Below, in pieces: positions 7,186-10,559 of a stretch of DNA of 33,659 bases. Made by a program: the position numbers and the translations under genes. Under the pieces are notes generated by a model. The model ran no database searches, was not told where the DNA came from, and saw nothing but the letters and a program-made list of their open reading frames with translations. Position 1 is the first letter of the stretch. Each line of letters starts with the position of its first letter. Source of the DNA: Phycisphaerae bacterium (GTDB taxonomy: Bacteria > Planctomycetota > Phycisphaerae > Phycisphaerales > SM1A02); the NCBI GenBank assembly GCA_002709295.1, contig PAQL01000017.1, positions 117,252 to 150,910 on the forward strand. Direction: 5' to 3'.

Positions 7186-7809
7186 ATGTCAGTTCCTGCT
7201 CCAGACCGGTCCCCCTTGGACATCAGAACCGACCTCGAGGCCATGATCGCCGATCGGCGGGCCAGACTCGACCAGGCCATGGCGGGTCTCGACGAGCGGA
7301 ATCCCGACCTCGTCGCCGTGGTGGAGGCGGTCGGAGACATCGTCCGCCGCGGCGGCAGGATCGTCACCTGCGGCAACGGGGGCAGCGCCGCGGAAGCCCT
7401 GCACCTCTCGGAGGAGCTGGTCGGCCGATACCGGACCGACCGCCCCTCGATCGCCTCGATCTGCCTCAATGCGGATCCCACCGCCATCACCTGCATCGCC
7501 AACGACTTCGGCTTCGAAGCCGTGTTCAGTCGTCAATGCGAGTCGCTGCTCGCTCCGGATGACGGACTGGTCGTCTTCAGCACCTCCGGGCGGAGTCCGA
7601 ATCTGCTTGCCGCCCTCGAGGCCGCGGGAGATCGGGGCGCCACCCGGATCGGATTCCTCGGCGGAGACGGCGGCCCCGCCGAAGCGCTCTGCGACGTCTC
7701 GATCGTCATCCCGGGCCCGGACTCCGCGGCCATCCAGGAAGCCCATCAGTTCATCATGCACGCCTGCTGCGAACAGTTCGAGCCCGCACCGGAGCCTGAT
7801 CGACGATGA
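7186..7809 (+). CDS. gmhA: GmhA-like phosphoheptose isomerase / SIS-domain protein
   Basis: A 207-residue cytosolic SIS-fold protein resembling sedoheptulose-7-phosphate isomerase, the first step to ADP-heptose. Sugar-phosphate motifs are CGNGGSAAEA at 62-71 and FSTSGRSPN at 131-139. The GmhA-type active-site blocks are HLSEELVGRYR at 73-83 and the C-terminal IQEAHQFIMHACC, supplying the Gln/His residues used in the family. The ATG at 7186 begins the helix that packs in the family; an earlier GTG-type start at 7090 would translate the spacer. No other heptose genes are in view, so a related SIS isomerase role is possible. Its stop overlaps the next start by 4 bp (ATGA), so it is translationally coupled to the thioredoxin-like gene. 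Confidence 0.85.
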   Translation: MSVPAPDRSPLDIRTDLEAMIADRRARLDQAMAGLDERNPDLVAVVEAVGDIVRRGGRIVTCGNGGSAAEALHLSEELVGRYRTDRPSIASICLNADPTAITCIANDFGFEAVFSRQCESLLAPDDGLVVFSTSGRSPNLLAALEAAGDRGATRIGFLGGDGGPAEALCDVSIVIPGPDSAAIQEAHQFIMHACCEQFEPAPEPDRR

Positions 7810-8885
7810 CGGACTCCGCCGGATCAAGCTCTCCCGTCACGTCGCCGAAGCAGGGTGGAACCCCGGGAACCATCCTCGTCCGGGTGATCGTGCCGCTGTG
7901 GGTCCTGGCCGGAGCGAGCGTCAAGCTCTGGACCTTCAACCCCGCCCTGCTTCCGGAACCGATCCTCGACCTGGTCAAGGACACCGCCGGCCTCTTCGGA
8001 GTCTCCGACCTCGGGTGGTGGCTGGAGATGTGGCTGAGGTTCTTCATCGGCGCCGAGTTCGCGGCGGTTCTGATCATGTTCGCCTCGCCACGACTGGCGA
8101 GGATGGTCGCCAGCTTCCTGCTCGCGGTCTTCCTCGCGGTGCTGGTCGCGACCATGGCGAAGTCGGCCGAGCGTGACGGCATCTCGGCGATCTGGAGCGG
8201 AAGCTGCGGCTGCTTCGGCTCGGCCAGCCCCCCGCCGATCGGAATGTTCCTGATCGACGGCGCCATGCTGCTCGGCGTGATCCTCCTGCGGCCCCGCACC
8301 GGTGGAGGTCCGCGTCCGATCCTGGCGGGCCTCTCGATCCTCGTGGGTTTCGGCATCGCCTTCGGCAGACCGACCCCGATGATCACCCTCGAGCCGATCC
8401 CCGTGCCGATCGAACCCACGCCCGTCGAGCCCGCCACCATCGGAACCGACGACGGCTGGGGAGAGGCGCCGAGCACCCTCGAGCCGTTCTACTTCACCGA
8501 GTTCGGTGAGTGGGTCGACACCCCCCTCTCATCGCAGCCCCTGGCCCGGCTGATCTCCAGACCGCTTCCCGACTGGATCGACCGGGACCGATTCCATCTG
8601 ATCTTCCATCGGGCCGACTGCGAACACTGCCACGCCCTTCTGGACGACTTCTTCAGCGGCCCCCTCGCCACACCGGCGATCGCGGTGGAGATTCCGGACG
8701 GGGATTCGTCCGCGGCCCTGGGCATGCCCTGCGAGGAGTGCCTGCTCCACCGACTGCCCGAGGGGACCCAGTACGTGGTGACCACCCCCGTGCTGCTGAC
8801 GATCCAGGACGGGATGGTGATCGCGGTCTGCGAGAACACCGACGACCTGTCGCTGGTGGCGGACACCATCGCCGCGAGCCGATGA
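7806..8885 (+). CDS. MauE/DoxX-like membrane protein fused to a thioredoxin-like domain
   Basis: 359 residues. Residues 22-190 contain about five transmembrane helices with SGSCGCFG at 132-138, the paired-Cys motif of MauE-like proteins. These assist disulfide formation in methylamine dehydrogenase maturation. Residues 225-359 are a periplasmic thioredoxin-like domain with CEHC at 272-275 in FHRADCEHCH, a second pair CEEC at 309-312, and the cis-Pro loop VVTTPV around 324-329. A Pro-rich linker (LEPIPVPIEPTPVEP) joins the two. The segment PFYFTEFGEWVDTPLSSQ just before the thioredoxin fold recurs in the next gene. It likely moves electrons or disulfides across the membrane to an unknown client. 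The ATGA overlap with gmhA indicates one operon. Confidence 0.8.
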   Translation: MTDSAGSSSPVTSPKQGGTPGTILVRVIVPLWVLAGASVKLWTFNPALLPEPILDLVKDTAGLFGVSDLGWWLEMWLRFFIGAEFAAVLIMFASPRLARMVASFLLAVFLAVLVATMAKSAERDGISAIWSGSCGCFGSASPPPIGMFLIDGAMLLGVILLRPRTGGGPRPILAGLSILVGFGIAFGRPTPMITLEPIPVPIEPTPVEPATIGTDDGWGEAPSTLEPFYFTEFGEWVDTPLSSQPLARLISRPLPDWIDRDRFHLIFHRADCEHCHALLDDFFSGPLATPAIAVEIPDGDSSAALGMPCEECLLHRLPEGTQYVVTTPVLLTIQDGMVIAVCENTDDLSLVADTIAASR

Positions 8886-8965
8886 AACGTCGCGGACGGC
8901 CGATGTGGCCGGCCCCGGACACCCGACCTCATGTTCGTACGCATGCCCGACATGGAAACGATCCG

Positions 8966-9568
8966 ATGACCAAGACCCCCCTCCGGCAGATGACCCTTCT
9001 CGCGCCGCTCGCCCTGATCCTCGGTGGTTTCCCCACCGGCTGCGATCGCACGCCGGATGCCGGCGACACCGGATCCGGCGACACCGGGTCGGCCGAGACC
9101 ACCGCCGCCCCGGGCCGGGACGCCGCCGTCGATCCCTGGGGGCCGATGCCGACCACGGTCAACCCGTTCTACTTCACGGAGTTCGAGGAGTGGGTCGGCA
9201 AGCCGATCGCCTCCCAGGAGATCGCCCGCCTCATCAACCGACCGATCCCCTCCGAGCTTGACGAGGGTCGGTCCTTCCTGATGTTCTACCGCTCGGACTG
9301 CGAACACTGCCATCACATGCTCGAGCAGTGGTTCACCGAATCGGTGCCCGCGACCACGATCGCGGTGCAGGTGCCCGACACCGACCCTGCGGATGCCATG
9401 CCGTTCCCCAGCACGCTGGTGAAGCGGCACAGCCTTCCCGGCGGACCGGACTACGTGATCTCGACTCCCGCCCTCTTCGCGATCAAGGACGGGATCGTGA
9501 CCGGTTTCGCCAGCGATCCCGACGAACCCGGAACCGTCGAAGCCTGCATCTCCTCCAACGCCGGATGA
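8966..9568 (+). CDS. Thioredoxin-like lipoprotein, paralogue of its two neighbours
   Basis: A 200-residue protein with a lipoprotein-type signal: MTKTPLRQ, a hydrophobic core and FPTGC with Cys26 as likely lipidation site. A Gly/Thr/Asp-rich linker (30-50) follows. The thioredoxin-like domain has PFYFTEFEEWV at 67-77, CEHCHH at 112-117, AVQVP and the cis-Pro loop VISTPA at 164-169. It aligns closely with the C-terminal half of the preceding protein but lacks the second CxxC: where that has MPCEEC, this has MPFPST. I chose the ATG at 8966 because it opens the signal peptide. An ATG at 8882 overlaps the upstream stop by 4 bp and stays in frame, adding 28 basic residues; it cannot be ruled out. 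Confidence 0.78.
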   Translation: MTKTPLRQMTLLAPLALILGGFPTGCDRTPDAGDTGSGDTGSAETTAAPGRDAAVDPWGPMPTTVNPFYFTEFEEWVGKPIASQEIARLINRPIPSELDEGRSFLMFYRSDCEHCHHMLEQWFTESVPATTIAVQVPDTDPADAMPFPSTLVKRHSLPGGPDYVISTPALFAIKDGIVTGFASDPDEPGTVEACISSNAG

Positions 9569-9578
9569 GCCGACCCTC

Positions 9579-10559
9579 ATGACCTCTCTCGCCCGTCTTC
9601 TTCTGGCGGCATGCCTCGTGGCCGCCTCGATCGCCATCGCGACGACCGGTGGCGATGCGATCCCGATCTGGGTGGTCGGCATCAGCGCCAGACTCGACGT
9701 CTCTCCCGAGATCGGAGCCCGCATCACCGCCGGAGCCTGCGCCGCGCTGGCCGGGATCGTGGTGCTGCTCGGACGGCGTGGAAGGACTCCGGCAAGGCTC
9801 GTCGCCGCCGCCCTCGCCCTGAGCGGGCTGGCCGACGGCTCCGCGATCTACGCCCTCGGCGACGAAGCCACCGTCGGCTTTCTTCGTCCCCTCCTGCAGC
9901 TGGCCGTCGGACTCCTGACGCTCTGGGGCCTGAGCACCGGACGAAAGGAATCGAAGAAGAGCCCGATGCGACATCCCGGACTCGCCGGCGCCGGGGTGAT
10001 CGCCTCCCTGGCGGTCGGTGCCGCGATCGCCGCGAACATCGACGTCCCCATGCCGGAAAGCTTCCGAAACGCATCCGGGTCGAATGCCCGCGGCGCCGAC
10101 GGACGGTTCATCGTCAACGATCTGCAGGCCGACGAGTGGGCCGGAATGACCCTCGAGGAGACTGGACTGCTCGAGCATCTCCCCGCCATCGCGCCGCTCA
10201 GCCAGAGTCAGCCGACCCTGATCAGCTTCTACCGATCGAACTGCGGACTCTGCCACGACCTCTTCGACAAGCACTTCGGAGGGCGGCTGCCGGTCCGCCT
10301 GATCGCGATCCAGGTTCCTCCCGCCGAGGGGGTCGAGCTCGTCGAGAACGACCTTCCCGAGGACGTGGTGTGTCCCGACTGCGTGCGACTCAAGCTTCCC
10401 GAGGGACCGGTGTGGCTGGTGACCACCCCGGTCGTGGTCGAGATCGTCGACGGGCGGATCGCCTGCGTCTCGCAGGACGACTTCGAGCGTTGCATCGACG
10501 ATGCGATCACCCGCCAGGATGCGATGACCACCGACGTCCGGGACCCCCCCACCGGATGA
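9579..10559 (+). CDS. Membrane protein with DoxX-like N-terminus and thioredoxin-like C-terminus (third paralogue)
   Basis: 326 residues. The first 155 hold about five hydrophobic segments; ARLDVSPEIGARITAGACAA around 37-56 recalls DoxX/MauE proteins, but the CGC motif of the first paralogue is absent. The C-terminal domain has CGLC at 222-225 in FYRSNCGLCHDLF, a second pair CPDC at 265-268 and the loop VTTPVV at 281-286. The second pair sits just before LKLPEG, exactly as CEEC sits before HRLPEG in the first paralogue. It starts 10 bp after the lipoprotein stop, so the three form one transcription unit. It ends 3 bp from the stop of the convergent receiver-like gene. Confidence 0.77.
   Translation: MTSLARLLLAACLVAASIAIATTGGDAIPIWVVGISARLDVSPEIGARITAGACAALAGIVVLLGRRGRTPARLVAAALALSGLADGSAIYALGDEATVGFLRPLLQLAVGLLTLWGLSTGRKESKKSPMRHPGLAGAGVIASLAVGAAIAANIDVPMPESFRNASGSNARGADGRFIVNDLQADEWAGMTLEETGLLEHLPAIAPLSQSQPTLISFYRSNCGLCHDLFDKHFGGRLPVRLIAIQVPPAEGVELVENDLPEDVVCPDCVRLKLPEGPVWLVTTPVVVEIVDGRIACVSQDDFERCIDDAITRQDAMTTDVRDPPTG

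Follow-up and report, generated by a model that had tools for sequence, protein, structure and literature searches.

In this work, we focus on a stretch of DNA of 33,659 nucleotides (the window) from a Phycisphaerae bacterium of the family SM1A02 (Planctomycetota; positions 117,252 to 150,910 of contig PAQL01000017.1, assembly GCA_002709295.1), whose draft genome comprises 3.68 Mb in 43 contigs. Four tightly packed open reading frames (ORFs) lie on the forward strand of the window at positions 7186-10559. The first encodes a GmhA-like isomerase with a SIS domain (7186..7809), and its stop codon overlaps the start of the second gene in the sequence ATGA. This second gene, TRX1 (7806..8885), encodes a MauE-like membrane domain with five long predicted helices, fused to a thioredoxin (Trx)-like domain. 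After a gap of 80 bp follows TRX2 (8966..9568), a lipoprotein Trx-like protein with a CEHC active site and without a second CxxC motif. Only 10 bp further on begins TRX3 (9579..10559), in which a Trx domain with three cysteine pairs is fused to a decayed MauE-like half that lacks CGCxG. An earlier, sequence-only reading had described three consecutive paralogous Trx-like genes behind a GmhA-like gene, the first overlapping it by ATGA, and this is borne out: all four ORFs are present, and the three TRX proteins resemble one another.

TRX1 and TRX2 are 43% identical over 143 residues (E = 4e-43), TRX1 and TRX3 35% over 93 residues (E = 5e-14), and TRX2 and TRX3 26% over 205 residues, a stretch which exceeds the Trx domain (E = 2e-14). 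This similarity is far beyond chance, and the three are paralogues with a C-terminal domain in common. The motifs that had been assigned to this domain (FxRxxCxxCH, AIxVxVP and a V(T/S)TPV-type cis-Pro loop, with PFYFTEFxEWV shared by the first two proteins) are largely as claimed, except that the cis-Pro loop of TRX2 is ISTPA and the strand reads AIAVEIP, TIAVQVP or LIAIQVP. What had been overlooked is a second CxxC, found in TRX1 and TRX3 and absent from TRX2. None of the thioredoxin, redoxin or AhpC-TSA Pfam models is listed for the window proteins or for the relatives that were scanned, and TRX2 has a weak match to TraF (E = 0.06). Pfam gives no confident Trx match; the fold was assigned from AlphaFold2 models and their VIA-align matches. 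The model of TRX1 (359 residues; mean predicted local distance difference test score, pLDDT, 90.5; predicted template modelling score, pTM, 0.83) is made up of a membrane half and a Trx half. That of TRX3 (326 residues; mean pLDDT 88.7, pTM 0.71) resembles it in helix order, with the second and third helices forming a single DSSP run (residues 43-93). The Trx halves align with the extracytoplasmic thiol-disulfide oxidoreductases CcmG, ResA, DsbE and SdbA (Z about 9-10). For TRX1, CcmG (3kh9; Z 10.0 over 127 residues, root mean square deviation, rmsd, 3.5) and DsbE (3gl3; Z 10.0 over 114 residues, rmsd 3.1) are tied with many thioredoxin-fold chains, while the best match of TRX3 reaches Z 9.2 over 113 residues. 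With Foldseek alone, no match reached the E 0.001 level.

Relatives were compared as named loci; a search with the pattern C[DE]HC gave 105, of which the best 80 were used. Among these, the nearest by TRX1 are metagenome-assembled genomes (MAGs) of Phycisphaerales or Phycisphaera, for example ANT-54, MED708 and TMED9. The structure alignments cover 61 TRX1-type and 23 TRX3-type named loci. Window TRX1 scores 20.5 bits against the Pfam MauE model (PF07291), under the gathering cut-off of 27, so its membrane half is best termed MauE-like; the same model matches 56 of the 62 TRX1-type rows with E no higher than 0.01 (best E 2.7e-11). The MauE profile does not recognize the membrane half of window TRX3. 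HHalign relates the TRX3 and TRX1 membrane halves with a probability of 96.1 (E = 3e-9) over 93 columns, which stop short of the CGCxG position; alignment A6 comprises 21 of the 24 TRX3 rows and alignment A7 21 of the 62 TRX1 rows. Of the three different anchors that had been proposed, the lipoprotein and the two membrane halves stand, but because these halves are related, they count as one kind and the anchors are of two: a MauE-like one, which is intact in TRX1 and decayed in TRX3, and the lipid of TRX2. The signal peptide of TRX2 ends in a single cysteine within an imperfect lipobox, PTGC. Better lipoboxes occur in the same place in L070-L074 and in L004 of the same genus (LISGC, LILGC, LTLGC, LILGC, LILGC and LLSAC).

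A single-query search with TRX1 matched 34 of 61 genomes, all of them from the window's family (34 of 37, with 0 of 24 from other families of the order). A profile search found a MauE-Trx gene in 112 of 121 genomes of the family, including 80 of the 82 of good quality, and matched 54 of 294 genomes in a phylum-wide sample, where many matches were weak or partial. Eight named relatives are labelled Acidobacteriota, Thermoanaerobaculia or similar. Among the 80 named loci and the window (81 loci), 43 have a lone MauE-Trx gene that no Trx gene follows, a count that includes two loci cut by the contig end that group with TRX1 (L075, L080) and five more with less than 400 bp downstream. TRX1 and TRX3 stand together at 13 loci, and all three genes at six, the window included. 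A fused MauE-Trx-Trx gene is followed by TRX3 at 15 loci and lacks a downstream Trx gene at two, of which L098 ends 522 bp further on and L092 seems to be the fusion contig of genome G029. This genome retains both a fusion gene (L056) and a TRX3-type gene (L067), on separate contigs. No MauE half was detected at the remaining two loci (L119, L147). The fusion is a single ORF in 17 of the 80 named loci, and the first set of relatives also holds four fusions (L036, L043, L048 and L056), three of which are seemingly identical with L078, L088 and L092. The order isomerase, MauE-Trx, an optional Trx gene and a final Trx gene was found repeatedly.

A few loci deserve separate mention. L105 (83-2912) is a fusion cassette of the kind otherwise seen in Planctomycetota, here on a 4 kb contig from a MAG that bears the label Limnohabitans, which is probably a binning error. 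At L065 (8857-10085), the MauE-like and Trx halves are two overlapping reading frames, either a true split or a frameshift. In G355, contigs C1 and C2 each hold a MauE-Trx gene with an isomerase gene beside it, and this may be a doubled cassette or a mixed bin.

The membrane half of TRX1 has a single invariant cysteine pair, that of CGCFG (residues 134-138; 8205..8219), with C134, G135, C136 and G138 invariant in the 62 TRX1-type rows. CGCxG is present in all 79 MauE hits, which are also the hits by which the TRX1 and single-copy genes were defined. The MauE profile recognizes the membrane half of 15 downstream genes, all of which are without CGCxG, and no CxCxG precedes the Trx domain in any of the 34 TRX3 genes. 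The loop is poor in lysine and arginine (K/R): it has 0.47 per sequence, whereas the two loops of the opposite side have 1.84 and 3.02. Another loop on the side of the Trx domain, 22 residues long, has 2.35 K/R. From these counts, we infer that the CGCxG loop lies on the same side as the Trx domain, outside the cytoplasm. A CGCxG-type motif in an extracytoplasmic loop is what we take to be a MauE trait, and the motif of TRX1 fits it. On the membrane face opposite this loop, no invariant cysteine was found in the 62 TRX1-type rows. With its one invariant cysteine pair, the TRX1 membrane half is unlike CcdA and DsbD, which are transmembrane carriers of reductant.

In the Trx domain, the two cysteines of the active site (CEHC in TRX1, residues 272-275; 8619..8630) are invariant among the 60 Trx domains of alignment A2. 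The second CxxC, which in TRX1 is CEEC (residues 312-315; 8739..8750), occurs in 30/43 single-copy proteins, 33/36 TRX1, 34/34 TRX3 and 15/17 fused second domains; all six TRX2 proteins lack it. A C-terminal cysteine pair, defined as at least two cysteines that lie C-terminal to the first CxxC and, where there is one, to the second as well, is present in 42/43 single-copy proteins, 34/34 TRX3 and 15/17 fused second domains and in only 11/36 TRX1. Six cysteines are invariant in the 24 TRX3 rows. Single-copy proteins thus have both CGCxG and the C-terminal pair, whereas TRX1 has kept the first and often lost the second, and TRX3 has kept the second and lost the first, a pattern best described as complementary loss. 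All 43 single-copy proteins and 29 of 36 TRX1 domains have DH or EH between the active-site cysteines, counts that are biased because the search pattern required C[DE]HC; the dipeptide of TRX3 is different. A reading of CxxCH as a heme c site was rejected, as relatives have Q, E, F or Y in place of the histidine; the residue is Q in 19 of 36 TRX1 domains.

A tree was built from 136 Trx domains over 137 columns, a short domain for which the program warned of long branches. All 34 TRX3 domains fall on one branch (support 100/99) and the six TRX2 domains on another (100/100), whereas the 17 fused second domains require four changes on the tree. One clade for all second Trx domains, TRX2 and fused together, was rejected by the approximately unbiased (AU) test (p = 1e-4). 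The fused Trx domains of L078 pair with one another, as do those of L092. In the simplest story, TRX3 would have arisen by one old duplication, and a second Trx domain would later have been added beside TRX1 on several separate occasions, although gene conversion between neighbours could mimic such independent gains.

With moderate confidence, we interpret the three TRX genes as an extracytoplasmic thiol-disulfide relay. They are read as one system mainly because of the complementary loss of cysteines after duplication. First, the CGCxG dithiol of TRX1 would be oxidized by a membrane quinone, following the logic of VKOR and DsbB, and would then oxidize the CEHC of TRX1's own Trx domain. This domain would hand the disulfide on to TRX2 and TRX3, acting as extra shuttles, which in turn would oxidize or proof-read secreted clients. 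The predicted topology fits an outward-facing membrane dithiol, which quinone could recharge as in DsbB and VKOR. On the side of the sequence evidence, TRX3 is an old duplicate in which the cysteines of the Trx domain were kept and the membrane dithiol was lost, and in several lineages a second Trx domain adjoins TRX1, either as the free lipoprotein TRX2 or within the same chain. A relay as such is plausible; its direction and its client we infer. Of the sequence-only interpretation, the recurrent redox set is upheld and the single origin of TRX3 and the fusions agree with it, while the proposed link to a sugar-phosphate pathway is not supported.

Several observations weigh against the relay or its oxidizing direction. 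The fold matches include CcmG and ResA, both of which act as reductants. TRX2 is dispensable, as 13 of the 36 multi-copy loci have only TRX1 and TRX3, and since 43 loci seemingly have one MauE-Trx gene, the basic function can do without the three-part form. Furthermore, no client gene travelling with the cassette was seen in the neighbourhoods of the loci. A gene whose secreted product ends in a PEP-CTERM-like tail (labelled by eye; the one scanned had no Pfam match) lies directly upstream of MauE-Trx at 12 loci (L061, L097, L101, L103, L109, L116, L122, L123, L127, L138, L139 and L143), and its products were set aside as clients, having 0-3 cysteines each. The M20 peptidase that is the next same-strand gene at 21 loci looks like inherited gene order; further downstream of it are genes for an ABC transporter, NAD kinase and seryl-tRNA synthetase. 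The formiminotransferase-like and GDP-mannose dehydratase-like neighbours in Acidobacteriota, named by eye, gave no lead.

VKOR was not found in the window genome and is present in 26 of the 61 genomes. A DsbB-like match occurs in nine of the 61, the window genome among them, so the relay need not be the sole oxidant there, and the argument that this genome has no other disulfide oxidase was dropped. Eight of these nine belong to the 16 genomes with a TRX3-type gene (G000, G001, G004, G007, G008, G018, G030 and G035), and one (G002) to the 21 other family members searched, an overlap that may reflect kinship only.

The alternative that survives best, and which we still regard as unlikely, is a relay running in the reducing direction, in which the membrane half of TRX1 would feed electrons outward to TRX2 and TRX3 and keep the thiols of particular exported proteins reduced. 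CcmG, ResA and TlpA do this for cytochrome c and copper proteins, and it is CcmG, ResA and DsbE that the Trx domains match best, albeit with many thioredoxin-fold chains tied (Z 9-10 for TRX1, at most 9.2 for TRX3). However, with no invariant cysteine opposite the CGCxG loop, there is no obvious route from a cytoplasmic donor. In addition, the DH or EH dipeptide, within the pattern-biased counts given above, puts a histidine before the second cysteine, as in the CPHC active site of DsbA.

A second alternative, a pathway-specific system that would work together with the GmhA-like isomerase to make sugars or envelope polysaccharides, appears quite improbable. The isomerase itself is a good relative of GmhA, matching PF13580 (E = 3.6e-19) and TIGR00441 (154.4 bits, under the equivalog cut-off of 209.45), with the phosphoheptose isomerase 1tk9 as its best solved relative (E = 4.6e-41). 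Its HxxxE and IQExHxxxxH motifs align with 1tk9, and their histidine and glutamate are presumably the catalytic positions of GmhA. Besides the ATGA overlap, the position of the gene speaks for such a system: it is the commonest neighbour in a count that also took in 12 unnamed loci, of which two or more repeat named ones. Recounted without these, over the 80 of the 81 loci where the cassette was called, it stands on the same strand within six genes at 39 loci and directly upstream at 27. Some single-copy loci (L050, L057, L060, L064 and others) also lie near genes for an exosortase (PF09721), DUF3485, sugar transferases or other polysaccharide synthesis. Placement was then compared in 110 genomes of the family, the 112 with a MauE-Trx hit minus G348 and G383, which gave no usable place; for G011, with two MauE-Trx places, the weaker one, from the first search, was used. 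Strong isomerase matches are those at E 7e-37 or better, found in 76 of the 85 genomes with any isomerase hit. The strong match lies within 350 bp upstream on the same strand in 48 genomes and within 3.5 kb in 12 more. In 16, however, it is elsewhere, either further along the contig (9) or on another contig (7), and 34 have no strong match; 22 of these are at least 90% complete, and two (G365, G407) have a fragment of a likely orthologue near the cassette. In genera g6, g18, g26 and g53, no MauE-Trx-bearing genome has a strong match, and the eight Acidobacteriota loci showed no isomerase, some of them with just 2-3 kb of upstream sequence. The gene is also found in members of the order from other families. 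Conservation of the four-gene order in several genera, which had been named as support for a system, is observed for the redox genes; the isomerase often has no strong match or lies far away. The GmhA-like gene is a frequent neighbour, clearly separable, and no needed part of the relay.

That the set is a tandem duplication of little functional meaning, with redundant copies of one disulfide oxidoreductase, is hardly probable: many relatives are served by the single-copy form, and the fused domains of L078 and L092 cluster as recent duplication or gene conversion would give, but TRX3 is one old lineage with its invariant cysteines and its own active-site dipeptide, and its loss of CGCxG is complementary to the frequent loss of the C-terminal pair in TRX1.

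The relay that we favour is best filed with the membrane oxidoreductase-thioredoxin fusions as a known kind, of which the three-part MauE-Trx set would be a variant without a description that we could find. The MauE and MauD proteins of methylamine utilization clusters likewise pair a MauE-like membrane domain with a Trx-like partner; here, both halves are in one chain and multiplied. According to one paper, there has been speculation that MauE assists disulfide formation in methylamine dehydrogenase (PMC7794033). The light chain of this enzyme (PF02975) was matched in 0 of 61 genomes, the control genomes being equally silent. VKOR-thioredoxin fusions and the DsbB/DsbA pair also combine a dithiol-bearing membrane domain with an extracytoplasmic Trx domain, either in one chain or as a separate partner, and PMC4555120 describes VKOR homologues that carry a Trx-like domain at the C terminus. 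Unlike these, for which two conserved cysteine pairs are expected, the TRX1 membrane half has one, C134/C136, and neither TRX1 nor TRX3 gave a Pfam match to VKOR (PF07884) or DsbB (PF02600) at E up to 10. The BT_3928 family (NCBIfam NF045576) is matched by 24 of the 62 TRX1-type rows (E 0.01 or better), and in members checked singly the match falls within the MauE half. However, about one third of the profile is covered, scores are at most 21.1 bits against a cut-off of 250 in six relatives scanned singly, and the window proteins have no match. Finally, the fetABCDEF cluster of Campylobacter jejuni has two membrane-associated Trx proteins, FetE and FetF (PMC10783030), and the FetE structure (8t4c) is among the fold matches of TRX1 (Z 9.0). 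That cluster serves iron acquisition with an ABC transporter, and no MauE protein is mentioned there, the single text match being an author's name. In the open PubMed Central (PMC) literature, with most subscription papers outside the search, no description of this gene layout was found, and no open PMC paper was found for MauE with DoxX, CGCFG with thioredoxin, or BT_3928.

A bolder proposal, which we offer tentatively and consider rather doubtful, is that, next to DsbA/DsbB and VKOR/DsbA, the set represents a third kind of pathway by which bacteria form disulfides. Here, a MauE-type quinone oxidase with a thioredoxin of its own in the same chain would have grown, in one family of Planctomycetota, into a relay of three stations: membrane oxidation by TRX1, hand-over by TRX2 and a six-cysteine terminal station in TRX3, the second station having been gained repeatedly by fusion or as a lipoprotein.

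To our knowledge, it is unsettled which enzymes make extracytoplasmic disulfides in Planctomycetota. With a self-contained MauE-Trx protein in 112 of 121 genomes of the family, and with natural fusions that name the partners, the guess that MauE serves in disulfide formation becomes directly testable. The complementary losses of cysteines suggest how one redox protein may have split into specialized parts. Taken as a whole, the set points to an undescribed route by which members of a family of uncultured Planctomycetota may form extracytoplasmic disulfide bonds or hand them on.

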